Position numbers and translations under genes: made by a program. A stretch of 64,000 bases of DNA from Siphonodentalium dalli (taxonomy: Eukaryota; Mollusca; Scaphopoda; Gadilida; Siphonodentaliidae), in assembly GCA_032622095.1 (NCBI GenBank), contig CP136069.1, positions 30,136,342 to 30,200,341 of the forward strand, given 5' to 3'. Below are positions 1,584 through 46,500 of this stretch, piece after piece (position 1 is the first letter of the stretch; each line of letters starts with the position of its first letter). The notes below the pieces were generated by a model. The model saw only the letters and a list, made by a program, of their open reading frames with translations, did no database searches and was not told the origin of the DNA.

Positions 1584-4500
1584 CTGATAAAAGAATGTAA
1601 GTCACTGTCATGTACTCTTAGTATGTAAATCATGTATAAATCCTTGGTGTGAGAGGAAATAATGTACTCTTAGTATGTAAATCATGTATAAATCCTTGGT
1701 GTGAGAGGAAATAATGTACTCTTAGTATGTAAATCATGTATAAATCCTTGGTGTGAGAGAAAATAATGTACTCTTAGTATGTAAATCATGTATAAATCAT
1801 CGGTGTGAGAGAAAATAATGTACTCTTAGTATGTAAATCATGTATAAATCCTTGGTGTGAGCAGGTGTGAGAGGAAATAATGTACTGTTAGTATGTAAAT
1901 CATGTATAATTCCTTGGTGTGAGAGGAAATAATGTACTCTTAGTATGTAAATCATGTATAAATCCTTGGTGTGAGAGAAAATAATGTACTCTTAGTATGT
2001 AAATCATGTATAAATCCTTGGTGTGAGCAGGTGTGAGAGGAAATAATGTACTCTTAGTATGTAAATCATGTATAAATCCTTGGTGTGAGAGGAAATAATG
2101 TACTCTTAGTATGTAAATCATATATAAATCCTTGGTGTGAGAGGAAATAATGTACTCTTAGTTTGTAAATCATGTATAAATCGTAGGTGTGAGCAGCTGG
2201 TTTGAGTGGAATTAATGATCCTAGGTCTCAGGTAACCAGAGGGTAAATTTGGTGATGCTAGACCACTATGTGGGATAGTGTCACTAATTTTACCCTCTGG
2301 GGACCTCATTCTTCAAATGTCAGACACACTAAATTCAGACTTGCACTCATACGGACATACAGAGTCTATCATAGTTGCATTGAAATGTCATTTCTCAGAA
2401 GCATGTGAGCAAATTACATAACACTGCAGTACAGCATGCAACAATTTGTGACCCGCCATATCAAATCCAGTCGTAAGTCGAGATTTTTTTTACCCTGTGC
2501 CAATGCATTCTCTTATATATGCGAGTTGACCATAGGTCGCCTCACATATATAAGAGAATGCATTGGCCTAAATTTTTTTTACAATTTTAATAATTTTTTC
2601 TTGTATTCTTTAACAATTTTATAATTTCACCCATACAGAGCCCCAGACAAACATGAGCAGGCGACACTCTTCTATATGGTAGGGAATGCTTTGGCACAGG
2701 GTAAAAAAAATCCCGACTTAAGACTGGATTTGATATGGCGGGTCACATTTCATTTCAGATTTCTTACCTTTCGATTGTTTCAATCTTGCTTTGATAAATT
2801 CTATTATCATCCTCAATAGTATGACACTTGTCTCTCATTTGTTCCAGTGATTCAGACAAATGTTCAACCTGTAAAATATATTTAACAATGTGTTCAATAT
2901 TGGTTGAATATTTAGAATGGGTTGAATGTTTATATTTACCCTTCCATGACTGGAGCTTCCTGAAATTATGCGAAAACCCTGTGTCAATGCATTCTCTTAT
3001 ATATGTGAGTCTGCCTCACATATAAAAGAGAATACATCAGATGGCATAACAATATATATCTTGACCTTGTAAGTGCATTATTTTATACATGTGAGGCTCC
3101 CTGTGATAGACTAGCATATATAAGGGAATGCACTGGCAAATGATCTGTAATGCTGCACCAGTGCACCTCCCGTAATGAGAGGGTTAACGCTCCCCAGAGG
3201 GAGAATTAGTGACGCTATCGCGCACAGAGGGCTAGCAACACCAACTTCACCCTCTGGGGACCTCATTCTGTAAATGTCGGACACACTATATCCAGACTTG
3301 CCATGAGCCCTTCTGTTCAGTTTCTGTATCCCCCAATTTGCAGAAGATAAAATGTGATAATCGAGGTGACTAATGAGTGAACATCACTGGCCACTTCAAC
3401 TGGGGAACTTCAATCTGGTCCTTGGTCTTCCATAGCAGTTGAGGCCAAAGCAGAATGAATTCCCTCTGTCGACCTAATTATGCAAATGTCAGGCAAACTA
3501 TTTCCAGACTTGTGTACGAACCTTTGCAGTGAGTTCTGCTGTGAATTTACTATTGTCAGTGTTCTTTTTTTCATTCGTCAGTAATCGATCATTTGCATCT
3601 TGGAGACGTATCTCGGCAGATCGTAGTAATTCCGGCAGTGGTTCTAGTTCCTGAAGGCGCTGGTGTAATCTGTATTTAACCTACAAAAGAAAGAGATAAA
3701 ACCTTCAAATTAATCTTCAAATTAATAATTCTTCCTTTCGTTGTTGCTTTTAATAAAAAAAACAAAACAAGAAAGGTTTGATGAACACTGAACTCAACAG
3801 CAATATGTACAATACAAATAAAGAAGATTTTGGTTTGTTTTTACCAGAAACAAAACTTTTGGGTCGTTCAGGCCTGCTGTCAAAGTTAAAGCCCTGTGCC
3901 AATAAATTCTCTTATATATGCGAGTCGACCATAGGTCGCCTCGCATAAGAGAATTCATTGGCCTAACAAATTTTATATTATTTTTTATAATTGTTAAAAA
4001 ATGTAAGAAAAATGATAAAAAATAAGAAAAAATGATATAAAAAAAATGATAAAATTGTTAAAGAATGTAAGAAAAAATAAGAAAAAATTGTTAGGCCAAT
4101 TATATATGCGATGTGACCTATGGCCGTTTCACATATATAAGAGAATGCATTGGCACAGGGTCTTTAATGTTGTGCCAGTTCAGCTCACGTCATGGAGGGT
4201 TAAATGAGACATATCTTCTCCTTGACACTTCTGATATAGAAATCAATTTCCTTATTTGTATATAAATGAAAAGATTAAATGTATTGCCGTTCTGTTCTGA
4301 CAGATCACTGAATAATATTAACCCTTTCTTTGCTAGATGGATCCTCCCATTCAGTTATAAAAGTATACATTGAAATAGTCTATGCATTGGCATAGGTCGC
4401 CTCGCATATATAAGAGAATGCATTGGCCTAAAAAAATTCTTATTTTAACACTTTTTACCATTTTTTCTTACATTCTTTAACAATTTTATAATTTTTTCTT

Positions 4501-7500
4501 ACATTTTTTAACATTTTTTATAATATTTTTCTACATTCTTTGACAATTTTATCATTTTTAATATGTGTTAAGCCAATGCATTCTCTTATATATGCAAGGC
4601 GACCTATGGTCGACTCGAATATATATGAGAATGCATTGGCACGGGGCCGTTCTGTTGGGTAAAGGGTTAATAAGTCCAACAAATGACCTATGGTTGGTTG
4701 TTGAACCTATTAACTGAACATTTCCTAACAGAACTCCTCGTTGATGAATATTTAGTAAAGAAAGGGTTAAAGATACTTGACAGATTTGTTATGTTGATAA
4801 TGGTCACCAGAATGGTCGAAAACTCATGCGATTAACCCTTTCATGATGGGAGAGAGCTGGTGCAGATTAAAGATCCTGTGCCAGTGCATTCTCTTATATA
4901 TGCAAGTCTCCCATGGCATAGGGGACCTCGCATATAATAAGAGAATGCACTGGTCTTACAATGTCAAGGCAAATATTTTTAGGCCCATGATTTCTCTTAT
5001 ATATGAGAGGCTATCTACATGGGAGACTCGCATATATAAGAGAATGAATTGGCACATGGTTTTCTGATCTATTGAAAATAAACTCCATTTATTATTCACA
5101 TGTCACGTACCTTCTCTATTTCGATATCACCCTTCTGTTGTTCTTCTAATCGCACCAGAGTGTCATCAGCATCTCTGCGAGATAAATTCATCTGTAATAG
5201 AGAATCAACAAACTAGCTAGTATCACAAAATTCATCCTCTGGGTATCTCATTCCGATTACAAATTACTGGGTATATGTGACAGAATTAGTTCAATTTACA
5301 ACAACATGGTGTTGTTTATGTTTACAGCATGAGTACCATGAAGGAAAAAGCCAAGTTCAATTCAGGAGGTCAAATGCAATCGTACTTTTTTTAAATAATG
5401 TAAACATTGCGATCTAATGTATTTTCCATATTGAATTACCGCTTTCAATTGGCAACTGTTGTGGAGTTCAGAACAAATAACATGTTTTCTATGGAATAAA
5501 CTTGTTTAATGTCACAATTGTGATATTTGATTACATTTATTGCTGGTTTTAGGTGAGCGAGTGGTCTGGGTGTAAAGTCCATCATAGAGGACCATAGCGA
5601 TGGGACTCAAACGTAAAACATGATCTCGTCTACCAGTGTAACTAGCTGGTTTAAGTGCGAGCAAACTTGGACTGGGATGGATCCAATTTTATATCGCTGG
5701 CCAAGCTTTGTTAAAATGGATTGTAAACTTCTCAATGAGTCTTTTGGGGAGTAACAACTTTAAAGGGGGAAGGTATATTTACTTCACTTCTGTATTTGTA
5801 TATGTGTTGGGGGTAGGGGGTGTTTATGGTGGTGTAGTTACCTGACCTCTGTATTTGTATATTTGTTGGGGGTAGGGGGTGTTTATGATGGTGTAGTTAC
5901 CTGACCTCTGTATTTGTATATGTGTTGGGGGTAGGGGGGTGTTTATGATGGTGTAGTTACCTGACCTCTGTATTTGTATATGTGTTGGGGGTAGGGGGGT
6001 GTTTATGCTGGTGTAGTTACCTGACTTCTGTATTTGTATATGTGTTGGGGGTAGGGGGGTGTTTATGATGGTGTAGTTACCTGACCTCTGTATTTGTATA
6101 TGTGTTGGGGGTAGGGGGGTGTTTATGATGGTGTAGTTACCTGACCTCTGTATTTGTTGGGGGTAGGGGGGTGTTTATGCTGGTGTAGTTACCTGACTTC
6201 TGTATTTGTATATTTGTTGGGGGTAGGGGGGGGGGGGTGTTTATGGTGGTGTAGTTACCTGACCTCTGTATTTGTATATTTGTTGGGGGTAGGGGGTGTT
6301 TATGGTGGTGTAGTTACCTGACTTCTGTATTTGTATATGTGTTGGGGGTAGGGGGGTGTTTATGATGGTGTAGTTATCTGACCTCTGTATTTGTATATGT
6401 GTTGGGGGTAGGGGGTGTTTGTGATGGTGTAGTTACCTGACCTCTGTATTTGTATATGTGTTGGGGGTAGGGGGGTGTTTATGCTGGTGTAGTTACCTGA
6501 CCTCTGTATTTGTTGGGGGTAGGGGGTGTTTATGATGGTGTAGTTACCTGACCTCTGTATTTGTATATGTGTTGGGGGTAGGGGGGTGTTTATGCTGGTG
6601 TAGTTACCTGACCTCTGTATTTGTTGGGGGTAGGGGGGTGTTTATGGTGGTCTAGTTACCTGACCTCTGTATTTGTATATGTGTTGGGGGTAGGGGGGTG
6701 TTTATGATGGTGTAGTTACCTGACCTCTGTATTTGTATATGTGTTGGGGGTAGGGGGTGTTTATGGTGGTGTAGTTACCTGACCTCTGTATTTGTATATG
6801 TGTTGGGGGTAGGGGGTGTTTATGATGGTGTAGTTACCTGACCTCTGTATTTGTATATGTGTTGGGGGTAGGGGGTGTTTATGGTGGTGTAGTTACCTGA
6901 CCTCTGTATTTGTATATGTGTTGGGGGTAGGGGGGTGTTTATGATGGTGTAGTTACCTGACCTCTGTATTTGTATATTTGTTGGGGGTAGGGGGGTGTTT
7001 ATGATGGTGTAGTTACCTGACCTCTGTATTTGTATATGTGTTGGGGGTAGGAGGGTGTTTATGGTGGTGTAGTTACCTGACTTCTGTATTTGTATATTTG
7101 TTGGGGGTAGGGGGGTGTTTATGATGGTGTAGTTACCTGACCTCTGTATTTGTATATTTGTTGGGGGTAGGGGGGTGTTTATGGTGGTGTAGTTACCTGA
7201 CCTCTGTATTTGTATATGTGTTGGGGGTAGGGGGGTGATTATGATGGTGTAGTTACCTGACCTCTGTATTTGTTGGGGGTAGGGGGTGTTTATGATGGTG
7301 TAGTTACCTGACCTCTGTATTTGTATATGTGTTGGGGGTAGGGGGTGTTTATGCTGGTGTAGTTACCTGACCTCTGTATTTGTTGGGGGTAGGGGGGTGT
7401 TTATGATGGTGTAGTTACCTGACCTCTGTATTTGTATATTTGTTGGGGGTAGGGGGTGTTTATGATGGTGTAGTTACCTGACCTCTGTATTTGTATATGT

Positions 7501-10500
7501 GTTGGGGGTAGGGGGGGTGTTTATGGTGGTGTAGTTACCTGACCTCTGTATTTGTATATGTGTTGGGGGTAGGGGGGTGTTTATGCTGTGTAGTTACCTG
7601 ACTTCTGTATTTGTATATTTGTTGGGGGTAGGGGGGTGTTTATGCTGGTGTAGTTACCTGACCTCTGTATTTGTATATGTGTTGGGGGTAGGGGGGTGTT
7701 TATGGTGGTGTAGTTACCTGACTTCTGTATTTGTATATTTGTTGGGGGTAGGGGGGTGTTTATGATGGTGTAGTTACCTGACCTCTGTATTTGTATATGT
7801 GTTGGGGGTAGGGGGGTGTTTATGCTGGTGTAGTTACCTGACTTCTGTATTTGTATATTTGTTGGGGGTAGGGGGGTGTTTATGGTGGTGTAGTTACCTG
7901 ACTTCTGTATTTGTATATGTGTTGGGGGTAGGGGGTGTTTATGGTGGTGTAGTTACCTGACCTCTGTATTCATCAATGAGCGTCTCGTATTGCTTGAGAT
8001 TTGATTGTAGCTGCACAATCTCTTGTTCAGATTGAGAATATTTATTTTCAAGCGACGCAATGGAAGACTGAAACAGAAAAACACATAATCTATATACAGT
8101 AATTCCCAAAGTAATTGACCACTTAACCACAGCAGAATTATGGGTAATTTTTCAGGATTTAGTCGGAAATATGGCTTGTTGCCATTCATTGGAAAGCTCT
8201 CGGTGAGAGCTTTCAGATGAATGGCAACAAGCCAAATTTCCGACTAAATCCTGAAAAATTACCCATAATTCTGCTGTGGTTAAGTGGTCAATTACTTTGG
8301 GCATTACTGTAAGGCATTGGAACAGACAGTGTAAAACCAGTATAGTGAGTAAGAACACCATTATACTAAGTAAACATACTTTAAGTATGCTGTTGGGACA
8401 AATGCATAATTGTATATAAGAGAGAAGTCACTTCTCCCTGGGACAAAAATAGGGAGAAGTGGCACATTTTAGGGAGAAGATGTCGCCCAAGTCACCCTCT
8501 AGGCTGGTCCCTGTTTGTAACCTCAAATTTAAATATATAAGATTTTCAGAAAAGGCGAGCAATTTTCAATAAAATTTCAAAACTTTATATGTTTTACAGA
8601 TGTTTATATTTTTACACATTTACCCAATGCGAGTGCATTGGGTCCCTTTAACTGCTATGTCGGTAGTTTTTAATGAATTCTTGTGTGCCATCTATCAAGA
8701 AGCAAGCGTGAGTTTAGTGTGACTGTCATTTGCAGAATGAGGTCCCCAGAGGGTGAATTTAGTGACGCTATCCCACATATCCCGCATAGCGGGCTAGCAT
8801 CACTAAATTCACCCTCTGTGGACCTCATTCTGCTTGGGCCTCATCTTCTCTGGAAAATCTCTTTATTATCAAATTTCTATAGAAACTTCTTCACATAGAT
8901 TCTATTTCTTTTTTAGTTTAGTTTCTCTATATCCCCAAATTGGCAGACGACACATAACATATCGAGGTTCCCAATGGGTGTACATCACAATATTCACCAT
9001 TTGGGAACTTCAGTCTGAGTCTATGTTTCCCATAGCAGATGAGGCCATGCAGAATGAGGTTCCCAGAGTGTGAATTTAGTGATGCTAGCCCGCTATGTGG
9101 GATAGCATCACTAAATTCACCCTCTGGGGACCTCATTCTGCACATGACAAGCACACTAAACTCAGGCTTGTTAAGAAGTCATTGAACTAACCTGTAGCCT
9201 ATCATTATCTAGTTGTAAGTTTGCAACCTCCGTGTTTTTATCATGCAGCCTTGTTGAAGCATCGTCCAATTGGATTCTAGTTTTTTCCTCGACCCTGGTA
9301 ACCAAATTTTCAAGCTCATCAGTACGCCTGCAATACATAAATTCTTCAAATGTGACCCGCCATATCAAATATATAGGTCGCCTCGCATATATAAGAGAAT
9401 GCATTGGCATAATTTTTTTTTATCATTTTAAAAAAATAAATGTTTCTTACAATTTTTAGGACATAAAATAAAAAACATCCATTACCCTGCAGGGAGCCCC
9501 ACACATAAATAGAACCATATAGAAGAGTGTCGTCTGCTCATGTTTGTCTGGGGCTCTGTATGGGTGAAATTATAAAAATGTTAAAGAATACAAGAACAAA
9601 TTATTAAAATTGTAAAAAATTGTTAGGCCAATGCATTCTCTTATATATGTGAGGCGACCTATGGTCGACTCGCATATATAAGAGTATGCATTGGCACAGG
9701 GTAAAAAAAATCCCGACTTACGACTGGATTTGATATGGCGGGTTACAAATTGCTCAATAATTTCGAATAAATGTTGATCAATAAAGTCATTGCATCCCCT
9801 TCATTTTCATTATAAAATTTGTCTCAAGATTCAATAATATAAACTTTGAGGGCAAATAAATACAAATTGTGTGTTCTCAGACACCTCCCTCATCACTCAA
9901 GCACCTCCCTTGTCACTCATTCACCTCCCTTGTCACTCACACACCTCCCTTGTCACTCAGGCACCTCCCTCGTCACTCAGGCACCTTCCTTCTCACAGAA
10001 TTGTATTTAAAAGCCTCGTCAAACATATTTTTCAATATTTTTTGTTTGAAATATTGGATTTGAATAAAGAAAATAAATTTTAGTTTGTTACTTGAGTTTT
10101 CCTGATTTTGGGGAAAAAAATTAAAAATAGTTTGGTGCCAGGCTGCCCCGATTCGATAACACAGCATTGGCTGGTGCCAGGCTGACAATTCAAAACTCAT
10201 ATAAATACATTGGCGTTTTTAGTGTATTTATTTTCATGAATTCTGTTTTCTCCCACTCTCTTTCTTTTTTCTCACTCTTAGTAGGTAATAAAGTTAGAAG
10301 AAATCCATAGCAAAATTGACTCTGAGGTGGCTCAAAAGCGCAAGATTAGTGCCCAACACTGTAAAATAAGTGTATAAATAGTGAAAATCGTCTATTGATA
10401 CAAGTAGTGAAAATCTTCTATAGATAGTGAACATTGTCTATAGATAGTGAAAATCATAGATCTATAGAGAGTGAAAATCATAGATCTATAGATAGTGGAT

Positions 10501-22500: not shown

Positions 22501-25500
22501 AAATCGGAAGGCGACTTCACTTCTCCCTGACGCGACACTAAGGCGACTTCGAGGCGTCGAGGGCGACTATTTCGCCCTACTCGCCTGGTAAGCTGAGGCC
22601 TGCTGGGAATGAGTGCGGTTATTCTATATCGCATGTAAAAAAATTAATCCTTGTTAGATTTTTCCTGACACATTAAAATTAAAGAGTGTTGATCATGCTA
22701 TTTTGACCACAAGAACATGAGAATAGCGAACAGGTTCAGTCTAGTCTTGAAGATTATATGGCGTTTAGGGGCTTGTTACATGGGCCGGGACAACTTGGCT
22801 AGTCGGGACAACTTGGCTAGTCGGGACAACTCGGTTTGCCGGGTGGCCCAGTCTAATGTGCTTGCTCACTGAACATATGGTGTGCTGTTACATGAGCTGG
22901 GTCAACTCGGCAAACCGAGTTGTCTCATCCCGCTTTGTCAGGACAACTCGGTTAGCCGGGACAACTCGGCTCACATAACAGCGAGTCATCTCATCTAGCT
23001 GGCATGAAAGTCTGGAATGTAACAGATTCGTTGTGACTTGACATGATGTTAGCCAATAGAATGCGCACGTCATCATAGTGAGGTTTAGTGACAACCCAGG
23101 CCACTCACTTATGGGCGTGCCGACATTAGGTACTGACGTCGTGACGCGTGATTGACAGCTAGATGGATAGCTAGTCGCATGAACGTCAAACCAAGTTGTC
23201 CCGGTTAACCGAGTTGTCTCGGCTCACATAACAGAGTGCTTGAGTTGTCCCGGCAGACCTGTTGTCCCGGCTAGCCGAGTTGTCCCGGCCCATGTAACAA
23301 GCCCCTTAGACACAGAATACTGACCTTGTGGCTTTTTTGAGAGCCTCCTTGTCCTTATCTGAGCGACTCTTGGCGGTGGATACAAGCTGTTGTAGGTGAT
23401 CCATATCTATTTTGTTCTGGGCAATCTCACCCTCTAGCGTCTATAATAAAATGAGCAGAAAGAGTATAAATACTTACTATGAAGAAAACAAATAGATTTC
23501 AAATCTCAGAAGAAACTTAAAAACTCATACCGTATTATTCTACGAGTTTCTTTCATTCTTGAAATTGAAATGGAAATAAGAAGAAAAAATGTACTTCATA
23601 TACTAGAATTATTCACAATTTCTAAGGAAGGGTCCTGTCCTGTGTAGTTTAAAATTAAGACTCGCAATATAAAAAAAAAATTACATGCTGGGAAATAAGA
23701 GTTTCTAAAATTTGAGGCAATTTAAAGTGGGACTGTACCCTAAATCCTGCCATTTGTGGAACCATCTCCTTTTATACTCAACAGAATATATGCAACAAAT
23801 GAATGAATTTGAGCCATGGATGAGTGCAAAATACAAACATTTTCTTTATGTATGATACAAAAAACATGGTAATTATAATGAAAATGAATTTATGACTCCA
23901 GTCATAAATTCATTTTCATTGTGACTACCATCTTGATTGCATCGTTCATAGAGCACATGAGTGTATTTTGCACTCATCCATGGCTCACATTCATTCATTG
24001 CATATATTCTATTGAGTATAAAAGGATATGGTTCCATAAATGGTCAGATTTAGGGTACAGTCTCCCTTTAAGCATCTTAAGTGTCCAACTCACTCTATCA
24101 CATACTCTGCAAGTCATTTCTCTTCATCCTGAATTTGATCTATCTCTTCCTGGCAAAGCTTCCAACAACAATTTTTTTTCGGAAACTCGTTTTGAAGGTT
24201 TGATTGTATTACTATTCCCCAAAACACAGAGAAATATGGGGCATTGCACAGATTTCTATAAAGAATTTCAGAACATACACACATCACAGCTTAACAGTGA
24301 AAATAGCCACATGTTCTGTCCCATTTTCTATTACTAGTAGGAGTACATATTATTTCAGAGTGACAGAAACTCCCAAAATTTTATAATGGCCCTGATTCTG
24401 TATAGAAAGCTATAGGAAGATATATACAGCATATAATATAATATAATATATATAATAAAGCATATAAATTCAAAGCTCTAAAAATTTCATATAAATAGAA
24501 TTGCAATATTTTCATATTTTCTCACCCGGATTTGTGCAGCCATTCTGTTACACTCACCCTTATCTGTACAGCCATTCTGACACTCACCCTTATCTGTACA
24601 GCCATTCTGACACTCACCCTTATCTGTACAGTCATTCTGACACACTCACCCTTATCTGTACAGCCATTCTGACACTCACCCTTATCTGTACAGCCATTCT
24701 GTTACACTCACCCTTATCTGTACAGCCATTCTGACACACTCACCCTTATCTGTACAGCCATTCTGACACACTCACCCTTATCTGTACAGCCATTCTGACA
24801 CAATCACCCTTATCTGTACAGCCATTCTGACACTCACCCTTATCTGTACAGTCATTCTGACACACTCACCCTTATCTGTACAGCCATTCTGTTACACTCA
24901 CCCTTATCTGTACAGCCATTCTGACACTCACCCTTATCTGTACAGCCATTCTGACACTCACCCTTATCTGTACAGCCATTCTGTTACACTCACCCTTATC
25001 TGTACAGCCATTCTGACACTCACCCTTATCTGTACAGCCATTCTGTTACACTCACCCTTATCTGTACAGCCATTCTGACACTCACCCTTATCTGTACAGC
25101 CATTCTGTTACACTCACCCTTATCTGTACAGCCATTATGTTACACTCACCCTTATCTGTACAGCCATTCTGACACTCACCCTTATCTGTACAGCCATTCT
25201 GTTACACTCACCCTTATCTGTACAGCCATTCTGACACTCACCCTTATCTGTACAGCCATTCTGTTACACTCACCCTTATCTGTACAGCCATTCTGACACT
25301 CACCCTTATCTGTACAGCCATTCTGTTACACTCACCCTTATCTGTACAGCCATTCTGACACTCACCCTTATCTGTACAGCCATTCTGACACTCACCCTTA
25401 TCTGTACAGCCATTCTGACACTCACCCTTATCTGTACAGCCATTCTGACACTCACCCTTATCTGTACAGCCATTCTGACACTCACCCTTATCTGTAGTCA

Positions 25501-28500
25501 TTCTGTTACACTCACCCTTATCTGTACAGCCATTCTGTTACACTCACCCTTATCTGTACAGCCATTCTGTTACACTCACCCTTATCTGTACAGCCATTCT
25601 GACACTCACCCTTATCTGTACAGCCATTCTGACACTCACCCTTATCTGTACAGCCATTCTGTTACACTCACCCTTATCTGTACAGCCATTCTGTTACACT
25701 CACCCTTATCTGTACAGCCATTCTGACACTCACCCTTATCTGTACAGCCATTCTGACACTCACCCTTATCTGTACAGCCATTCTGACACTCACCCTTATC
25801 TGTACAGCCATTCTGACACTCACCCTTATCTGTACAGCCATTCTGACACACTCACCCTTATCTGTACAGCCATTCTGTTACACTCACCCTTATCTGTACA
25901 GCCATTCTGACACTCACCCTTATCTGTACAGCCATTCTGTTACACTCACCCTTATCTGTACAGCCATTCTGACACTCACCCTTATCTGTACAGCCATTCT
26001 GACACTCACCCTTATCTGTACAGCCATTCTGTTACACTCACCCTTATCTGTACAGCCATTCTGACACTCACCCTTATCTGTACAGCCATTCTGTTACACT
26101 CACCCTTATCTGTACAGCCATTCTGTTACACTCACCCTTATCTGTACAGCCATTCTGTTACACTCACCCTTATCTGTACAGCCATTCTGACACTCACCCT
26201 TATCTGTACAGCCATTCTGACACACTCACCCTTATCTGTACAGCCATTCTGACACACTCACCCTTATCTGTACAGCCATTCTGTTACACTCACCCTTATC
26301 TGTACAGCCATTCTGACACTCACCCTTATCTGTACAGCCATTCTGTTACACTCACCCTTATCTGTACAGCCATTCTGACACACTCACCCTTATCTGTACA
26401 GCCATTCTGTTACACTCACCCTTATCTGTACAGCCATTCTGACACACTCACCCTTATCTGTACAGCCATTCTGTTACACTCACCCTTATCTGTACAGCCA
26501 TTCTGACACACTCACCCTTATCTGTACAGCCATTCTGACACACTCACCCTTATCTGTACAGCCATTCTGTTACACTCACCCTTATCTGTACAGCCATTCT
26601 GACACTCACCCTTATCTGTACAGCCATTCTGACACACTCACCCTTATCTGTACAGCCATTCTGTTACACTCACCCTTATCTGTACAGCCATTCTGACACA
26701 CTCACCCTTATCTGTACAGCCATTCTGTTACACTCACCCTTATCTGTACAGCCATTCTGACACTCACCCTTATCTGTACAGCCATTCTGACACTCACCCT
26801 TATCTGTACAGCCATTCTGACACTCACCCTTATCTGTACAGCCATTCTGTTACACTCACCCTTATCTGTACAGCCATTCTGACACTCACCCTTATCTGTA
26901 CAGCCATTCTGACACTCACCCTTATCTGTACAGCCATTCTGTTACACTCACCCTTATCTGTACAGCCATTCTGTTACACTCACCCTTATCTGTACAGCCA
27001 TTCTGACACTCACCCTTATCTGTACAGCCATTCTGTTACACTCACCCTTATCTGTACAGCCATTCTGTTACACTCACCCTTATCTGTACAGCCATTCTGT
27101 TACACTCACCCTTATCTGTACAGCCATTCTGACACTCACCCTTATCTGTACAGCCATTCTGACACTCACCCTTATCTGTACAGCCATTCTGACACTCACC
27201 CTTATCTGTACAGCCATTCTGACACACTCACCCTTATCTGTACAGCCATTCTGACACTCACCCTTATCTGTACAGCCATTCTGTTACACTCACCCTTATC
27301 TGTACAGCCATTCTGTTACACTCACCCTTATCTGTACATCCATTCTGTTACACTCACCCTTATCTGTACAGCCATTCTGACACACTCATCCTTATCTGTA
27401 CAGCCATTCTGTTACACTCACCCTTATCTGTACAGCCATTCTGTTACACTCACCCTTATCTGTACAGCCATTCTGACACTCATCCTTATCTGTACAGCCA
27501 TTCTGTTACACTCACCCTTATCTGTACAGCCATTCTGACACTCACCCTTATCTGTACAGCCATTCTGTTACACTCACCCTTATCTGTACAGCCATTCTGA
27601 CACACTCACCCTTATCTGTACAGCCATTCTGTTACACTCATCCTTATCTGTACAGCCATTCTGACACTCACCCTTATCTGTACAGCCATTCTGTTACACT
27701 CACCCTTATCTGTACAGCCATTCTGACACACTCATCCTTATCTGTACAGCCATTCTGTTACACTCATCCTTATCTGTACAGCCATTCTGACACACTCACC
27801 CTTATCTGTACAGCCATTCTGTTACACTCACCCTTATCTGTACAGCCATTCTGACACACTCACCCTTATCTGTACAGCCATTCTGACACACTCATCCTTA
27901 TCTGTACAGCCATTCTGTTACACTCACCCTTATCTGTACAGCCATTCTGACACAATCACCCTTATCTGTACAGCCATTCTGTTACACTCACCCTTATCTG
28001 TACAGCCATTCTGTTACACTCACCCTTATCTGTACAGCCATTCTGTTACACTCACCCTTATCTGTACAGCCATTCTGTTACACTCACCCTTATCTGTACA
28101 GCCATTCTGTTACACTCACCCTTATCTGTACAGCCATTCTGTTACACTCACCCTTATCTGTACAGCCATTCTGACACACTCACCCTTATCTGTACAGCCA
28201 TTCTGTTACACTCACCCTTATCTGTACAGCCATTCTGACACACTCATCCTTATCTGTACAGCCATTCTGTTACACTCACCCTTATCTGTACAGCCATTCT
28301 GACACAATCACCCTTATCTGTACAGCCATTCTGTTACACTCACCCTTATCTGTACAGCCATTCTGTTACACTCACCCTTATCTGTACAGCCATTCTGTTA
28401 CACTCACCCTTATCTGTACAGCCATTCTGACACTCACCCTTATCTGTACAGCCATTCTGACACTCACCCTTATCTGTACAGCCATTCTGTTACACTCACC

Positions 28501-31500
28501 CTTATCTGTACAGCCATTATGTTACACTCACCCTTATCTGTACAGCCATTCTGTTACACTCACCCTTATCTGTACAGCCATTATGTTACACTCACCCTTA
28601 TCTGTACAGCCATTCTGTTACACTCACCCTTATCTGTACAGTCATTCTGTTACACTCACCCTTATCTGTACAGCCATTATGTTACACTCACCCTTATCTG
28701 TACAGCCATTCTGTTACACTCACCCTTATCTGTACAGCCATTCTGTTACACTCACCCTTATCTGTACAGCCATTCTGACACTCACCCTTATCTGTACAGC
28801 CATTCTGACACTCACCCTTATCTGTACAGCCATTCTGTTACACTCACCCTTATCTGTACAGCCATTATGTTACACTCACCCTTATCTGTACAGCCATTCT
28901 GACACTCACCCTTATCTGTACAGCCATTCTGACACACTCATCCTTATCTGTACAGCCATTCTGTTACACTCACCCTTATCTGTACAGCCATTCTGACACT
29001 CACCCTTATCTGTACAGCCATTCTGTTACACTCACCCTTATCTGTACAGCCATTCTGACACTCACCCTTATCTGTACAGCCATTCTGTTACACTCACCCT
29101 TATCTGTACAGCCATTCTGACACTCACCCTTATCTGTACAGCCATTCTGACACTCACCCTTATCTGTACAGCCATTCTGTTACAGTCCCCTTCTTTTGTG
29201 CGGAGTTGTTTTTGTAGATGAGCTCGGGTTCCTTCCACATTGCTCTGAAGACTGCGTAGATTCAGCATGTCTGACTGTGAAAATAGAAAAATGTGTTTAA
29301 ACGAAAATGGCTCATTCGCAACCCAAAAATTGTATACATAATTTGGCAAGTTGTATCTTCAATCATATATAAATCGAAGATTTCCCGAACAAATGATATA
29401 GCGCTGAAACTACATGTTTTGTTTCTTAAATTGTTTGAAAAATTTGACATTGTTTCTTTTCTGCCGGTTGAATTTTAGTCAGCAGTCGTATAAACGGTAG
29501 ACCATGGGAAGAAAATCTAAAGCTGTCGTCGCTGTGAAACATTTATGATACTACATAATTGCTATGACTAAGGCAATGCGTGAAGTCTTAAATTAGTTTC
29601 ATGTTCAGATAATGTAATATACCTTATCCGGAAATTCCGATTCCAGAATTCCAATGAATATATATGGCACCATTTTTGTACGGGGCCCATAAATTTGTGT
29701 TCAGAGTTGTAATTTTTATGACTTCAATGAGTCTTTTTGAGGCATATCATGCTCGTAGAAAGGAAGTTCAGGTATTTATCAACCTATTTTGATACTGAGA
29801 AAAATTAAAAAGCGACTATTAATAGGTGGATTTTGGAGCACAAACTACTATGTGGCTTCAAATTGTACCTTGTTTTCAATCTATTTTCTGGATATATTGC
29901 TGAAAATATGAATTATAGTAAGTCATACTTCTAACCCTTTCATGATGGGAGCTGCACTGGTGCAGCATTAATACTCTGTGCCAATGCATTCTCTTAAAAT
30001 GTGATTCTCCCATAGAGAGCCTCACATATATAAGAGAATGTACTGGCTTACACGGTCACATTAAATATTGTTAGGCCAATGTATTCTCTTATATATGCGA
30101 GACTTGCATATATAAGAGAATGTATTGGCACAGGGTTTTTCGCAAAATTTCAGGAACCTCCAGTCATGGAAGGGTAAATATAACTCCTCTCACCACGTCC
30201 AAAGTTTTATCTAACGTCCTTACATTTTAAAAATTAGATATGTCTTTCTGGGACAAAAAGAGTTTGAATGAAATTATTTTATCACATAATTTGGCCATAA
30301 AAGCAGTTTCATAATTATCGGTAATAGACACGTTTAATATCAGTGCGTGCGATGACGTCACGGCGTTCTTCAGATAACTTGCGATCGCTGTATTTTATAA
30401 TTGTTGTTTTCGATGAATATTTCGCGTTGCTTCGGGTTTATTTGATCATGTGATAAAAGGTATCTCACACTCGTCCTATTTTATATGTAATTTATCAACC
30501 TCGTCCTCTAAATTCTATTTGAGCCTCGGTAAACCTCGGCTCAAATCGAATTTAGTGAACTCGGTTGATAAATTCTGTATAAAATAGGAACTCATGTGAG
30601 ATCCTCTATTTATGTATTTATCAAACTACAGTCGATTCCACTTAATAGCATAGCATTGGAGCAAGGGTTTTTCTATTTGATTAACTGAATATTCGTTTAG
30701 ACGAAATGCACTAAATTTTCTTCCTTTTAATTGAAATGAAAGCAGGAATGGCTGGTCGGTAATTAGATACTAGCCATGTTTATCAGCATACTAGTTGTAC
30801 ATAGTTCATTGAAATCACTGATAATTAATCATATTCTTAATAATTGTCGAAAAGAACAGTATATTTCAAGATATATGAGAAAAATTCTATGAAATTCTTA
30901 TTCAAATAAGCAGAATTTCACCGAAGTTCTATGCAAATATGTGAACATAAGATTGAGAAATCTATTGGAAATGGTTTTGGAATTTGATATTTTATAATTA
31001 TATCCGAAATATTTGATTAACCCTTTACCCAACAGAAGGGCCCTGTGCCAATGCATTCTCTTATATATGCGAGTCGACCATAGGTCCCCTCGCATATATA
31101 AGAGAATGCATTGGCTTAACACATTAAAAATTATAAAATTGTTAAAGAATGTAAGAAAAAATGTTAAAAAGTGTTAAAAAAAGATTTTTGTTTAGGCCAA
31201 TGCATTCTCTTATATATGCGAGGCGACCTATGGTCGACTCGCATATATAAGAGAATGCATTGGCACATGGCATAACTGTAACTATCACAATGTGGTCAAG
31301 GAGCCGGTTCCAATGATACCCATATTTGTATGGTTCTATTGAGAAAGACCGAAGATATGTTAGGCTGTTGAAGCTTTATTTGGCCGGTTTTGGCCGGTTT
31401 GTTGGGTAAAGGGTTAACACTTGTAAAATAATCAGCACTTACCTCCTGAACACCTATCTTTGATTGTAGCTCAGACATCATGAAGTCTTTGTCCAACAGA

Positions 31501-34500
31501 TCTCTTTTCAGTCGCTGCAATTGGAACCGGTTCATTAGTGTAAACAATATTTTATTCTGAATAGCAAGTGTGTACATACATATACAATTTTAATTACAAC
31601 ACATATATTTATTACAAAATGTTTACACGTGTGTCCCAGCATATAAGAGATGAGAAAAGGATCTGACTGTAAGCTTTGTAAGCTTATATTTGTCATTTCC
31701 CCATTGGATATTCACATGGGTGATAACTGGTTTATCATTAATATCTAAGTGAGTTATGTTGACTGCGAATTAATAATGGATATATATAGCTTCCTGCCTG
31801 CCCACCCCTCAGCGCCCATATGGTCCCCACCAACCCGTTCAATGAGACAAGGGTTGCCGCATTGTTGATAGCATAGTTTGTTTTCTCTCAGTTAGTCGCG
31901 AATCTTTTTGTAAGTAGAATATATTTCTGTACTTTTGCGAAGATATCGATGTTTTGATCTAGTGTTAATGACTGAGATCCTTTAATAAGATCATTTAAAC
32001 ATGGTCTGTTATGAAGACCTTGGAAGCATATCGTTCGTTCGTTCGTGAACTTTCGACAGTATAAGAAGAAGTGTTCAGTTGTCTCTGTCAGGCCACAATA
32101 AGTACAATCGGAATTATCCTGTAAGTGATTTTGGTGCAAGTGATCATTCAGATTACTGCATTCGAGACGGATTCGACAGTGGATTACTTGACTTTGCCGT
32201 GTATATGCATACTCGTAGAATTGTGGAGGTTCTATACAATCTTTATTCAGGAATTGTTTAAATTCGGAAACCGTTTCGCACATTTTCGCTTCGTCTGATA
32301 ATTCATTCCAAAGTTTAATAGCATGTGGTATGAATGATTTTTGTAAAGAGGTAGAAAAGCAAAAGGGACGTCTTAAGTTATCGTGCCTGAATGGGTATCC
32401 ACTTGAAGTTGTTGAATCCCTTGGGACATAGTTATATAGATATTGTGGGGTTGATTTTCTCGTCATTTTATAGAATTGAGCAAGTTTTGATTTTTCTCTC
32501 CTTTTCGATAGTTTCTGCCATCCAATTTCTACCAATAATTCATCCCTATTACAACTCCTAGTAGCCCCCGTTATTATACGTGCTGCTTCATATTGTATAT
32601 CTTCTAATAATTGTGATTCTTCAGCCGTGCAATTGTCCCACACAGGGGAAGCATATTCCAAGACGGGGCATATAAATGATAGATAAATTCGTTCTAATGT
32701 TCTCCTATCTAGGGCATATTTATTCTTCCTAAGTATGTATAATCGTTGTGAGGCTAGCTCTTCAATATCTTCGATGTGATTTTTCCACTTCCCTTCATCG
32801 TTAAATGTCAGTCCTAGGTGCTTATGTTCAGTCACCTCTATGATATCTTCACCTGCCATCCTAAGGGGTGGATGATCTTCAATAATATTCTTCCGTGATA
32901 CTAAGATAGACTCTGTTTTCAATGGATTAAATTTAACGGCCCAGATTTGCGACCATTCATATATTCGCTGTATATCTTGGTTCATTACGTTGGCAGCAAG
33001 GGTGGGGTCTTCAACGGCAAGAAAAAGGGAAGTATCATCCGCAAATAGGCGAATATTGCTAGTTATCCCTCCAACAATATCATTTATGTAGACCAAAAAT
33101 AGCAGAGGGCCAAGTAAGGACCCCTGGGGGACTCCAGCTGAAACAGGCATCCAATTAGAGCTCACCCCATTGATTGTAACTCTTTGCTCTCTAGATTCCA
33201 AGTAATTCTCAAGAAGTTTATACATATTTCCTGTTATTCCCATTCTTTTCAATTTAAAGAGCAGTCCTCGATGCCAGACCTTATCAAAAGCTTTACTTAT
33301 ATCGCAAAAGACATATCTTATTTCTTTCCCCTCATCTAGTGATGATATGATATAGTGGTATATGTCGATTAATTGAAACACAGTACTGTCGTTGGGAGTA
33401 AACCCTGATTGCAGATCGGACAACAATTTGTGTTCACGCAAATAGTCTGACAGACGACGGTATATGCATTTTTCAAAGATTTTAGAGAGACAACTCAGAA
33501 GGGAAACAGGGCGATAGTTTGACGGTATACAAGGGTCATCTTTTTTAAAGATTGGACATACATTTGCCTTCTTCCACTCAATGGGAAAGTATGCATGTTT
33601 TAAAAAAATATTAAAAATAAATCTTAATGGTGCAGTTAAGGAAGAGGCACAGTTTTTCAATACTTTTGGGCTTATGCCATCATAACCGGAGGCTTTTGAC
33701 GTCTTAATTGACCGTAGGCATTTGTGAACAAGTTCGTCGTCGATTTCTATGTCACTTAGTTCGCTTTCTGTTAACTGGTCAAAGCGAGGTAACTCTATCT
33801 CCCTTTCGTTTGGCAATGACGATATTGAACAAAAGTATTTGTTGAAGGTGTTGGCTTTTTGTAAGTTGTCATTTATCAATTCATCGTTAAATATGAGTGC
33901 TGGTATAGGCTTAGGTTCCGGTTTCATTAATTTATTCAAAGTTTTCCACCAAAGTGAGGATTCAGTGAAGCAACTTCCCAATATACTTTGGGTTTTGGCG
34001 CAATAAGATTGTTTGGCCCGTCTGATAGCCGAAATAGCAGAATTTCGTTGTGATTTATATTTTGCCCAAGCATCATGAGAACATTTCCGTTTGGCTGCCT
34101 TGTATAATCGTTTTCTCTGCCTTATCATACCACGGATTTCGTTATTCATCCATTCTTTTTCATTTTGGCGAGTAGTTACTTGTTTGTTTGGTATATATTG
34201 CAATGTTATTTCATTTATTTTATTTGTCAATATATTCGCTAATTCGATGTATGGGGTATTAGATAGTTCTTTCTTGTAATTCCAATTTTCAAATTCGGCA
34301 TTCATTGCATTATAATCTGCTCTTGAGTAGTCCCATACCTTCCTTTTCACGATTCCACTCGATTTCTCTATACGAAAATTCAAATACATCACTATTGGAC
34401 AGTGAAATCGAGTCAAATCTGAGAAGAAAGGGTCAATAACTTCGCTATGTTTAACAAATTGTCCTTGGTTTGTTAAAAATAAGTCTATGAGAGAAGATGA

Positions 34501-37500
34501 ACTCTCTGTAAAATGAGTTGGATCTTTGATTAACTGTTCCATTCCGAATCGATTACGAATATATTTGACATATTTTGATTCAGATGGAAGTTGATTGGAA
34601 TTGAAGTCGCCAGTTAGAATCACGTGACGAATAACTTTCCTGTCTCCAAGGGCCATATCTATATTTGAATATATTTTCTCCCATGTATCTACTGGTAGAT
34701 TTGGAGGTTTATATAATGTACCAAGTAGAAACTTTGTTGACGACGAAAGCATGACTTCCACCCAGATACATTCGATTTCCGGAGTTTCTAGATCAGCACG
34801 TCTCCTAAAATAGTACGAATCCTTTATATACACAGCCACTCCTCCTCCTAATGTGGGTCTATTTAATCTCTCTGGGGCATGGAACCCGAGTATGCTCAGT
34901 TCTGCATTCGAAGTTTGTTCAGTGAGCCAGGTTTCAGTGAATGAGACAATATCGTAACTAGATGCTTCTATCGCCACAACGTCTAATTTTGGAAGCAAAC
35001 TTTGTATATTCAAACACATAATGGAGAATGTCTGTTCATAGTTATCTGCGGTAGGACCTGGATTAATTTTTATATCAAATGCTCGCCTTATTAATCCAAT
35101 TATGGTAAGTGCAATAGTTCTGGAAAGATTTGTTATACTATTTGTAACATCGCGATGTTTCCTTCGCATGTATTTCTGAAGTAACGCCCTATATGTTTTA
35201 TTTTTCATTTTGGAATATTTAGTTTTTAATAGTTGTTTTAGATGCAATGCAAAAACAATAGTATTTCGCACGATACTTTCAGTTATGCCTGAGTTTTCCG
35301 ACATCATTTCAAATTTATACGCAATTTGGTAAGGCAGTGTGCAATTGAGATCAAGCATAAAGTGCATTACAACTGTCAAAAACGCAATTTCCTGAGATAT
35401 ACCTCGCGCCCTTAATGTAATATATGAAAGTAAATTCAAAGATGCCAATGGGCTTAATGGTTTGTCTCTTGTCCCCTTGAAAGCTCTACCGTAGTACGAC
35501 CCAATTCTTGCCCTATATGTTTCCAGACTAATCATTACAATATGAACACGGAATAAAAATCCGTATCCAAGAATCAGACACATTAAGGGCAAGTATTGGG
35601 CTATACACGATCAATCCTAATAGCATGATGCTGGTGTGGCCCAAAGGACCTAAGGGGGTGATAGCAGGCAGTTTTTTGTAGCTAATATATGTGTGAAACT
35701 TACATGTTGTAGATATGAGAATAAAAATAACATGAACAGCAATATACATGAATGTTGGTTGAATATTTCCGGCAAAACGGCTTCAAATTTTCTTCCATCT
35801 ACACTTTTTGTTTGGTTTACGTTCTATATCTGGGATACATTTGTCACATTTTAACATATACAATCACAATCTTTCCGAATACACACATATACACATATAA
35901 ATGAATTTGTATATATAAAGTATTTTTGAAACGTATGGGATGGTCACTGCAACAGTTACTATCTACATAATCCATTTCAACTCCAAATTACAATCTGTTA
36001 CACTCAATCCCAATCAGTTATTAAGGTCCAACAAATTAATCCATAAATTGTTATCGAAATTTATATAAGGAGATGTAATTCAGGATAATACAATAATATT
36101 ATATTGTCAACCAGACTCGATGAAACCACTATATATAACTAGGGGAAATCTATTATTTGCCATTGTACGTTAGGTGTCAGCCACGCCCGGTTCATTGACC
36201 ACATTGTGATGGTTACAGTTATGCCCTGTGCCAATGCATTCTCTTATATATGCGAGTCGACCATAGGTCGCCTCGCATATATAAGAGAATGCATTGGCCT
36301 AAAAAAAATCTTTTTTTAACACTTTTTACGATTTTTTCTTACATTCTTTAACAATTTTATAATTTTTTCTTACATTTTTCAACAATTTTTATAATATTTT
36401 TCTACATTCTTTGACAATTTTATCATTTTTAATATGTTAAGCCAATGCATTCTCTTATATATGCGGGCGACCTATGGTCGACTCGCATATATAAGAGAAT
36501 GCATTGGCACAGGGCCGTTCTGTTGGGTAAAGGGTTAAACACCTTTATATTACTATTTCTTTGGCTTTGGGGATAAAACAAATCTGATTCGAGTCGAGTC
36601 GAGGAACTAATAAAAAAAGATCAGAGTGATCAGATATCGATTTTTGAAATCATTTATTTCTTGAGATGTGTAATTTTTTCTGCCTAGCAAATATTCGTCA
36701 AACCGACCAAATTGCGGATGAAGATGGATAACTCTAAAATCAAGTGGTAATTTCGTGATAATCAAGTGATAATACGGCGATATTTCGTTGATAAACATAT
36801 TTTGGGAAATTTTATACCATAGTTGACAGTGGTTAGCATTATTTTGTTGTATTTTAATCGATTCTGATAAATAAAGCATATTTCGAAGAAATGTTGTTGT
36901 TGTTGTAACTTGATGATATGGGGACTGTCTGATCGGATTGAGTACCTTTAAAGCATAGGTAGCAAAGTGTTTGTTGTCAAAGTGCTCAAGAACATGTGAA
37001 AACTTTGAAATATTGACAGAACTTTCTCAGGAGTACAGGCATGCTCAAACAATACAGCTTTATTACTTTGAACCCTTTCTGTATTGAATGGATTCTTCAG
37101 CCAATTATTAAAGTAAGTATACATTGGAATGGTCTATTATTTGGAGGGATTTAACACTTTCATGAAGGGAGCTGCATTGGTGCAACATTAAAGATCCCAT
37201 TCTCTACAGGGTCCCTTATCTCCGGGACCATTTATACACTATTCTCTATGGGAGACTCACATTTATATAAGAGAATGCACTGGCACAGGATTTTTGCAAA
37301 ATTTTAGGAAGCTCCAGTCATGAAAGGGTTAAATCCGCAGGTAAAATAAGCGTATTGACAATTTTTCATACTGCCCATACTACACAGTAGAGGAAACTGT
37401 TAAAATTCACAATTTATTTCTGTGTACGGTACGACTTCACTACATTCATGAAACAAATTTTATACCATGAATTATTCCTGATCAACGTTCAGTGGCTAAC

Positions 37501-43500: not shown

Positions 43501-46500
43501 CTCATATGTACTTTGTCTTTATTTTATTGCCTGTCCGACATTTAAAACATATATATCGTATTATATGTATTAATATCTAAGAATTCAACCGCAATTATAA
43601 ACAGCAGCAAATTCACAAACAGTGGGCGTCCTTGACCTGACTGTGTAACACGTGCATGAGTGACCCACATTCAATGACTGCGGTATGATCTCTTTGATGT
43701 CTGCAAACTTCTAGCAGATGACGTCACATCGGAATGTTTATTTAATGCCCTAAAGACTCTAAATGCATGTCTGGACAGCGTGTTCTCATATTTTAATGAG
43801 GCTTATGTGCGAACTCCTGTTTATATTACATAAACATTATTTTATGCTGTACCGTGTACGCATAACATTTAATCCCCACGTTGAGTAGTTGACACTTAAT
43901 ACTGAAGAGTGCATTGCATCACTATTAGCCCAAAGCGTTTTCATTCATGCTTCGCGACAATTAGGCGACAACTAAATTAACGAGGCCATTATCCTAAAAC
44001 AACAGTAAGCCGAGTCTCAGTTTTATATTCCTATAAATGATAGGATATTTTGTGTCTTTCCTCATACCTTAAAACTATTCAAACGACATCGTGCTTCATT
44101 ATACCTATCAGTTTTCTTCGAATTCAAAATGGATAAACGTGGCATCAAAAGGAAACGTCTAAGTTACGAAAGTTCATACAAGTTGAAAGTGATAAAATTC
44201 GCAAATGAACATGGTAATCGGCCCGCAGAACGAGTTTGGTGTTAGCGAGAAAATAATCAGGGACTGGCGCAAAAAGAAAGATATAATAAGTTTTATAATC
44301 CATGTTCCCACACACTCCTAATGAAAGTGAACCAATGTTATCTCCCCTGCTTGGGAATTCCCCCAAATCACATTGGGAATACCGGAAGCATTGGTGGAAT
44401 GTTCGTTCATTTTTACGTCTGTGATAAATTCTATTTACAAAAAACATTTCCTCTGCTCTAAATAACTCTAAATCCAGGTCAATCTGTCATTTTGATGTTC
44501 CCTTACAAGCCACTGAAATAGGTGCGACGTATACAACAGAAAGAGCCAAAAGGCAACATTTTAAGCTTCAAAATTCAATGCAACTTATCCAACGATGCGA
44601 TTTATCCACCGGCCGGTATGGTAATTGAAATGTCTAACCTGCGCCAAAGGATTTAGTGATGCAAAGAGTAAAATACGACTCCAAAATCACTCGTTCCCAT
44701 CTACATGTCAGTGTTAATTTAATAAAGATCAGACCAAAGGTATGACCTGTAGCCCATGCCAAAGGATTTAGTCATGCAAAGAGTAAAATGCTGGTGGCCA
44801 TGTTTTTTGACCGAATGACCCCAAAACGACTCGCTCCCATCTACATGTCATTGTTATAATTCATGACAAATTTCATGACCATCTGACCAAAGCTACGACC
44901 TGTAGCCCGCACCAAAGGATTTAGTCATGCAAAGAGTAAAATCCAAGATGGCTGCTGGCGGCCATGTTTTTTGACCGAATGACCCCAAAACGACTCGATC
45001 CCATCTACATGTCAATGTCAACGTCCATGACAAATTTTATAAAGATTAGACCAAAGGCAACCTATAGCCCGCGCCAAAGGATTTAGTCATGCAAAGAGTA
45101 AAATCCAAGATGGCTGCTGGCAGCCATGTTTTTTGGCCGAACGACCCCAAAATCACTCGTTCCCATCTACATGTCATTATTAACATCAATGACAAATTTC
45201 ATGATGATCAGACGAACAGTACGATCTGTAGCCCGCGCCAATGGATTGAATCTTGAAATCCAAGATGGCTGCCAGTGGCCATGTTTTTTGGCCGAATGAC
45301 CCCAAAATGACTCGTTCCCATCTACATGTCAATGTCAACATTCATGACAAATTTCATAAAGATCAGACCAAAGGTACGACCTGTAGCCCGCGCCAAAGGA
45401 TTTAGTCATGCAAATAGTAAAATCCAAGATGGCTGCTGGCGGCCATGTTTATTGGCAGAACGACCCCAAAATGACTCGTTCCCATCTACATGTCAATGTC
45501 AACATTCATGACAAATTTCATAAAGATTAGACCAAAGGTACAACCTGTAGCCCGCGCCAAAGTATTTAGTCATGCAAAGAGTAAAATCCAAGATGGCTGC
45601 TGGCGATGTGTTTTTTGGCCGAACGACACCAAAATCACTCGTTCCCATCTACATGTCATTATTAACATCAATGACAAATTTCATGATGATCAGGCGAACA
45701 GTACGATCTGTAGCCCGCGCCAATGGATTGAATCTTGAAATCCAAGATGGCTGCCAGCGGCCATGTTTTTTGGCTGAATGACCCCAAAATGACTCGTTCC
45801 CATCTACATGTCAATGTCAACATTCATGACAAATTTCATAAAGATCAGACCAAAGGTACGACCTGTAGCCCGGCCAAAGGATTTAGTCATGCAAAGAGTA
45901 AAATCCAAGATGGCTGCTGGCAGCCATGTTTTTCGGCCGAACGACCCCAAAATCACTCGTTCCCATCTACATGTCATTGTTAACATCCATGACAAATTTC
46001 ATGATGTTCCGATCGAAGCTACGACCTGTAGCCCGCGCCAAAGGATTTAGTCATGCAAAGAGTAAAATCCAAGATGGCTGCTGGCGGCCATGTTTATTGG
46101 CCGAACAACCCCAAAATGACTCGTTCCCATCTACATGTCAATATTAACATCCATGACAAATTTCATGATGATCAGACGAACAGTACGACCTGTAGCCCAC
46201 GCCAATGGATTGAATTTTGAAATCTAAGATGGCCACCAGCGGCCATGTTTTTTGGCCGAATGACCCCACAATGATTCGTTCCCATCTACATGTCAATGTC
46301 AACATTCATGACAAATTTCATAAAGATTAGACCAAAGGTACAACCTGTAGCCCGCGCCAAAGGATTTAGTCATGCAAAGAGTAAAATCCAAGATGGCTGC
46401 TGGCAGCCATGTTTTTTGGCCGAACAACTCCAAAATCACTCGTTCCCATCTACATGACAGTGTTAACATCCATGACAAATTTCATAAACTTCCGACCAAA

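Follow-up and report, generated by a model that had tools for sequence, protein, structure and literature searches.

Introduction

Minisatellites that duplicate a splice junction, called mirages, have been described in lancelets. The accessible parts of two reports place them in Adh3, the globin genes BflGb6 and BflGb9, troponin C and PGBD5; they occur at the 5' or the 3' boundary, splice signals are present in many but not all copies, and edge units escape homogenisation (PMC3087553, PMC3902484). According to the accessible part of the first report, BflGb6 contains between 3 and 6 units, each 150-160 bp long, Adh3 has units of 10-72 bp, and lancelet mirages are judged harmless to regular splicing (PMC3087553). 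It also refers to a model in which introns arise when exon segments containing AGGT are duplicated in tandem (Rogers 1989; Gao and Lynch 2009, via PMC3087553). Repeat arrays in the first intron are reported for earthworm metallothionein genes in the accessible part of another paper (PMC12783039). Here we analysed a window of 64,000 nucleotides from Siphonodentalium dalli (assembly GCA_032622095.1, contig CP136069.1, positions 30,136,342 to 30,200,341 of the forward strand), which carries exons of ODF2. One ODF2 exon end heads an array of 149 units on the minus strand, each made of the exon tail and its splice donor. This array is very probably a mirage, namely a junction-spanning duplication that expanded within the intron and is tolerated since the first donor is used. 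Junction copying is not a one-off oddity; it recurs at other splice junctions of the same genome, at about a tenth of the exon ends sampled. The kind of structure is already known, and the new part is its scale.

The main array in ODF2

The gene was assigned by tblastn with a human ODF2 query. ODF2 exon matches are colinear on the minus strand of the window, from 53.4 kb to 2.8 kb, and splice sites are readable in the sequence at most of them. The exon heading the array ends in ...KEGDCNRMAVQIR and has the acceptor CACAG, both read from the sequence. Its match to ODF2 starts at residue 338 (hit 338-386, 34.7% identity, E 6e-4) and extends at its tail into the array. The next exon resumes the frame (R-T-L-E) after an acceptor near 23440. 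Human ODF2 residues are continuous between the exon hits across the array-bearing junction, and human ODF2 presumably has an intron at this position too. When two exon peptides were searched against solved structures, no relative of ODF2 came up (best E 0.047). The features of the junction are as follows.

29158..29274, minus strand: ODF2 exon heading the main array, 39 codons, ending in phase 0 at AGG|GTGAGT (tblastn and sequence)
24520..29184 (about), minus strand: main array of exon tail plus GTGAG units (Tandem Repeats Finder (TRF) and unit table)
29158..29184, minus strand: the 27 exonic bases, which are the exonic part of the first unit (unit table)
24520..24552, minus strand: diverged far-end unit, ATCCGG|GTGAGA, adjoining the unique part of the intron (sequence and unit table)
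23325..23440, minus strand: next ODF2 exon (TLEGEIAQNKIDMDH...), acceptor TTATAG|ACG (tblastn and sequence)

TRF reported the main array as a single row (24521-29192, period 32, 149.3 copies, 94% matches), and splitting at the donors gave 149 units with 96 spacings of 32 bp and 52 of 30 bp. The unit consists of the last 27 coding bases of the ODF2 exon and the first five bases of the intron. A sequence-only reading of this DNA had proposed exactly this unit, and both TRF and the unit table bear it out. The same reading had drawn the array over 24521-29274; the array proper occupies about 24520-29184, and 29185-29274 is ordinary exon. The commonest 32-bp form makes up 55 of the 149 units, and its 27 exonic bases are identical to those of the first unit. 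A 30-bp form, two bases shorter near the start, accounts for 49 units, a second 32-bp form for 23 and minor variants for 22. About 150 strong donors had been counted from the array length, with AGG|GTGAGT in every unit. The number agrees with our 149, but GT is kept in only 141 units, and the five donor bases read GTGAG in 138, GTGAT in 3 and ATGAG in 8. The repeated donor reads GTGAGT because its sixth base is supplied by the next copy. The far-end unit has four base differences and, as had been noted, its own donor ending in GTGAGA. It had been suggested as the ancestral exon end; this is not needed, as the far unit of a second array in the gene is diverged too and edge units of lancelet mirages escape homogenisation (accessible part of PMC3087553). 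About 1.1 kb outside the main array, with its own acceptor, lies between this array and the next exon.

A change in the five donor bases was found in 11 of the 149 units. A change in the 20-odd exonic bases was found in the same number, excluding the differences that define the three main forms. The repeated donor bases are thus no better preserved than the remainder of each unit, and this counts against selection for U1 binding. In the main array, repeated blocks of unit types run to 6 at most, a length that 273 of 300 shuffles also reach; therefore, no higher-order repeat is claimed.

Reading frame at the main array

Use of a donor further into the array would lengthen the exon, and units of 30 bp keep the frame while those of 32 bp shift it, as the earlier reading had said. 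Two features determine what such use would produce.

29098..29157, minus strand: first two extra units, each of 30 bp, without a stop in the exon frame (unit table)
29068..29070, minus strand: TAA stop in frame at insert offset 87, within the third extra unit; the open frame ends at 29068 (unit table)

Splicing at donor 2 or 3 would lengthen the protein by 10 or 20 residues without a frame shift. The third extra unit is 32 bp long and brings the TAA, which closes the frame for all later donors. An insert free of stops is obtained only with donors 0, 1 and 2 of the 149.

Junction arrays at exons sampled without regard to repeats

We sampled 100 of 123 kinesin-domain matches and 40 of 96 dynein AAA_6 matches, each with 300 bases before and 450 bases after, without regard to repeats. 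The 23 kinesin rows dropped were 8 near-identical paralogues and the 15 lowest; the dynein rows were taken from the top with paralogous copies left out, so that 56 were dropped. All sampled loci were run through TRF, and flagged ones were read by eye. Arrays straddling the donor were found at 11 of the 100 kinesin exons (exact 95% interval 5.6-18.8%; L051, L071, L074, L090, L092, L098, L102, L106, L113, L118 and L128) and at 1 of the 40 dynein exons (L172), with the reservations that the L172 copies have lost a stretch around the junction and that L051 and L102 have about two copies only. The repeated exonic part in L092 encodes MNLVDLA, which we take to be the kinesin switch motif. Acceptors are involved as well. 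Within the 300 upstream bases, arrays containing the used acceptor AG were found at 5 of the 140 exons, three in the 100 kinesin exons (L090, L121, L132) and two in the 40 dynein exons (L157, L166). L117, in which the array abuts the acceptor without containing the AG, was excluded from this count. The acceptor-side unit of L090 includes the AG and no exonic bases.

Arrays away from junctions also occur in the kinesin loci. Six with a period of 24 or more have about two copies each (L050, L076, L095, L096, L131, L137), and others are AT-rich or resemble transposable elements (TEs) (L057, L081, L105, L115, L135, L136, L139 and a second array in L113). We asked of the kinesin arrays how often the donor would be straddled if the upstream array edge could fall with equal chance anywhere in one unit plus the 450-base flank. 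Arrays entered the test if their period was at least 24, with one of period 22 added, and the TE-like label is the analyst's reading. Of 15 non-TE downstream arrays, 11 straddle the donor where 1.4 would be expected (P = 1.8e-9); once TE-like arrays are counted as well, the figure is 11 of 22 against 2.3 expected (P = 2.2e-6). In statistical terms, and for the kinesin sample, donors are preferred places of array origin.

The arrays that were read share a common design. What is repeated in each case is the coding end of that gene together with its donor, which indicates that duplication started at the junction rather than reaching it from within the intron. By eye, units differ between genes, each derived from its own exon end, and the paralogues L022 and L025 share theirs. 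A stop falls within the first extra unit in 13 of 19 arrays of known frame, a count that uses one nominal unit length per array, with a first spacing that differs in both ODF2 arrays, L011 and L074 (L074 has no frame). The nominal unit length is divisible by three in 7 of 20 arrays, which is about chance level. Since unit lengths ignore the frame and early stops are frequent, the arrays as a class are not designed to produce isoforms. In other arrays copy numbers are low and the donors weak, e.g., GTATAA, GTCAGT and GTACAC.

Arrays found by motif across the genome

The genome comprises 2.23 Gb in nine contigs; a lancelet genome is roughly 0.5 Gb. Neither mollusc haemocyanin nor the GFP family gave a match in this genome, in searches that lacked a positive control. 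We searched the genome for three copies of AGGTAAGT spaced 23-53 bp, and also for triple AGGTGAGT and triple CAGGTAAGT, with the reversed motif as a control. Raw matches numbered 2141 against 520 in the control for triple AGGTGAGT and 1387 against 451 for triple CAGGTAAGT, long arrays being counted many times in these figures. Distinct arrays were counted for AGGTGAGT only. Among the matches listed, which cover contig C1 and contig C2 to 167.5 Mb, there were 23 distinct arrays against 9 for the reversed motif (P = 0.02), and one of these nine control arrays is itself a donor array. For triple AGGTAAGT, 8 arrays were identified on C1 among the matches listed ahead of a satellite that bears the motif.

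The flanks were fetched and translated, upstream of 31 donor arrays and on both sides of 8 of the 9 control arrays. Pfam was scanned for 21 of the 31, with four frames chosen by eye (L010, L014, L032, L021). In eight of the 31 donor arrays, the frame at which the array starts has a Pfam match above the cut-off. Seven of them were scanned, namely L003 (LEM), L008 (USP47_C), L010 (PSI_PlexinA-B, frame by eye), L020 (ShK), L022 (NIDO), L026 (zf-C2H2) and L033 (Ras). The eighth, L025, was not itself scanned and is counted with NIDO on a flank translation identical to that of L022. The frame in L033 is presumably Rab2. L026 is counted with reservation, as its exon itself consists of zinc-finger repeats; its array has stops in all three frames; therefore, this array is not simply more coding fingers. 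None of seven control frames was over the cut-off (6 of the 8 loci; 16 frames available). For the scanned loci the contrast is 8 of 22 against 0 of 6 (P = 0.14).

At L012, a tandem repeat of about 51 bp with TTTATAG|GTAACTCAGC, acceptor-like, lies at about 981-1170 just before the donor array, and one exon at this locus may be flanked by arrays on either side. Two satellite-like arrays on C1 (C1:231979802-232057385 and C1:257632637-257639710) have units of about 26 bp and 33 bp, many with the consensus donor AGGTAAGT. They are possibly amplified former junction arrays.

Other arrays in ODF2 and other features of the window

Donor arrays are headed by 2 of the 14 ODF2 exon ends listed, among which three exons were recognised by eye and some ends were placed approximately. 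The second donor array and an acceptor-side array are located as follows.

7957..8067, minus strand: second donor-array exon, ...LKQYETLIDEYRGQ|GTAACT, peptide end DEYRGQ (tblastn and sequence)
5782..7970, minus strand: second donor array, unit of about 60 bp, 38 donor-like sites (TRF, 5789-7970, and site count)
1610..2193, minus strand: acceptor-side array, 52-bp unit, 10.8 copies (TRF and sequence)

The spacing in the second donor array is mostly 59-60 bp. Exact CAG|GTAACT occurs at 36 of its 38 sites and the exonic part AATACAGAGGTCAG at 29. Its diverged far unit reads AATACAGAAGTGAA|GTAAAT, a stop is met 15 bases into the insert, and the following exon (MNLSRRDADD...) begins near 5191. The acceptor-side array has a unit with a pyrimidine-rich stretch and AG. 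It stops about 25 bp short of the acceptor of a further ODF2 exon (near 1584, recognised by eye) and does not reach the used AG, and it was excluded from the acceptor-array counts.

An open frame of 1240 residues lies between ODF2 exons (31888-35610, minus strand). From motifs such as FADD, it looks like a non-long-terminal-repeat retrotransposon endonuclease-reverse transcriptase. A weak ODF2 match at 32440-32622 was set aside, being inside this frame. A 164-bp tandem array of about 18 copies (44789-47650, TRF) lies within an ODF2 intron. Dispersed fold-back elements with CATTCTCTTATATATGCGAG and its complement occur at 480-740 and 4400-4700, the latter near AT-rich short repeats, and loci L106 and L113 end in similar fold-back copies.

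How the array may have arisen and what it may do

The following course of events would explain the main array. A short tandem duplication straddling the exon-intron junction, with 27 exonic and 5 intronic bases, would have started a minisatellite, which would then have expanded into the intron to 149 copies. The spliceosome probably uses the first donor, as exon definition with kilobase introns would predict, and the remaining copies would therefore be read as intron. Occasional use of donor 2 or 3 might add 10 or 20 residues, and transcripts using any later donor would meet the TAA and be degraded. The copies would be tolerated cargo that lengthens the intron. Tolerance because the first donor wins was one of three ideas in the sequence-only reading, and it is the best supported of them. 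As a whole that reading holds in part; it overlooked that the structure is of a known kind and that it recurs in the genome.

The other two ideas ascribe a function to the copies, and we consider both improbable. One is that alternative array donors insert variable numbers of a 10-residue repeat in ODF2. The first two extra units are 30 bp long and open in the exon frame, and to this extent in-frame isoforms could be made; but the TAA in the third unit leaves only donors 0, 1 and 2 of the 149 stop-free, the second ODF2 array stops after 15 bases, and early stops are the rule in the 19 framed arrays. The other, slightly less probable still, is that the array soaks up U1 small nuclear ribonucleoprotein (snRNP); we take it more widely, as selection for donors that recruit U1 snRNP either as a sink or as a suppressor of premature polyadenylation in a long intron. 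GT and GTGAG are kept in most units (141 and 138 of 149), and GTGAGT is a better match to U1 than the GTGAGA of the far unit. However, the number of donors was the one argument for soaking up U1, donor bases are changed as often as exonic bases (11 of 149 each) with ATGAG in 8 units, and the other arrays have few copies and weak donors.

Two further explanations concern origin, and each is very hard to credit. An ordinary intronic minisatellite may touch an exon by chance, and the window is indeed rich in tandem repeats (51 TRF rows), with non-junction arrays present in the sampled loci. Chance could account for any single array, but it is unlikely for the whole kinesin set, where the donor is the starting point of 11 of the 15 non-TE downstream arrays, with 1.4 expected; moreover, what is repeated is coding sequence, and it comes from independent genes. 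Alternatively, the intron itself would be the product of tandem duplication of an AGGT-containing exon piece. The authors of the lancelet work suggest that mirages may give rise to new introns (accessible part of PMC3087553). This requires that the whole intron derive from the duplicate, whereas about 1.1 kb of the ODF2 intron lies outside the array and has its own acceptor, and human ODF2 residues run on without a break over the junction between exon hits.

We thus prefer a tolerated mirage for the main array. A wider proposal is that splice junctions, and donors above all, are hot spots of minisatellite birth, with a mutational process coupled to junctions that turns about one in ten donors into array heads; we regard this as evenly balanced. 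Such a preference would be compatible with breakage or repair coupled to splicing, and also with selection for a spare donor. Several points weigh against the tolerated-mirage account. First-donor use is inferred. The dynein rate is lower than the kinesin rate (1/40 vs 11/100, P = 0.18), arrays with over three copies also lie away from junctions in the dynein loci (L146, and one array that appears in both L158 and L180), and the placement test covers the kinesin set. The excess of donors over acceptors is not significant (12 vs 5 of 140, P = 0.13). Raw matches to triple AGGTAAGT show no excess over the control (2151 vs 2127), the C1 satellite carrying the motif. The reversed AGGTGAGT motif also yields tandem arrays (9 vs 23), and the 23 are not all independent, as L022/L025 and L020/L021 look like paralogues. 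Finally, the Pfam contrast between donor and control arrays is not significant (8/31 vs 0/8, P = 0.17).

Comparison with known systems

The copy number of a mirage can rise as high as 149. Should the species not be a lancelet, in keeping with its listing as a scaphopod mollusc, mirages are no lancelet peculiarity. Junction minisatellites outside lancelets were not found in titles and opening abstract lines of a limited set of open-access literature. If about one in ten donors head arrays, they provide a natural experiment on how the spliceosome chooses among near-identical neighbours, and the role of junction duplication in intron growth and gain becomes testable by counting. If the hot-spot proposal is true, extrapolation gives thousands of arrays genome-wide and a major source of intron growth.

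The earthworm arrays share with ODF2 the presence of intronic minisatellites, and splice-junction copies are not described in the accessible part of that report (PMC12783039). The model of Rogers (1989) and Gao and Lynch (2009) has the junction-spanning tandem duplication in common with the ODF2 array; unlike in that model, the ODF2 copies lie inside an intron with an unrelated 3' part. The closest relatives are the lancelet mirages. As in these, the ODF2 array is a tandem repeat spanning an exon-intron boundary, with copies that carry splice signals, and both 5' and 3' boundaries are involved in the genome studied, the acceptor cases being at loci other than the main array. The mirage class is further characterised by length instability, between alleles or in somatic cells, and by regular splicing that goes on undisturbed. 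In contrast to the lancelet mirages, the ODF2 array consists of 149 units of 30-32 bp, and the present study, unlike the lancelet reports, gives a sampled rate, 11 of 100 and 1 of 40 donors.

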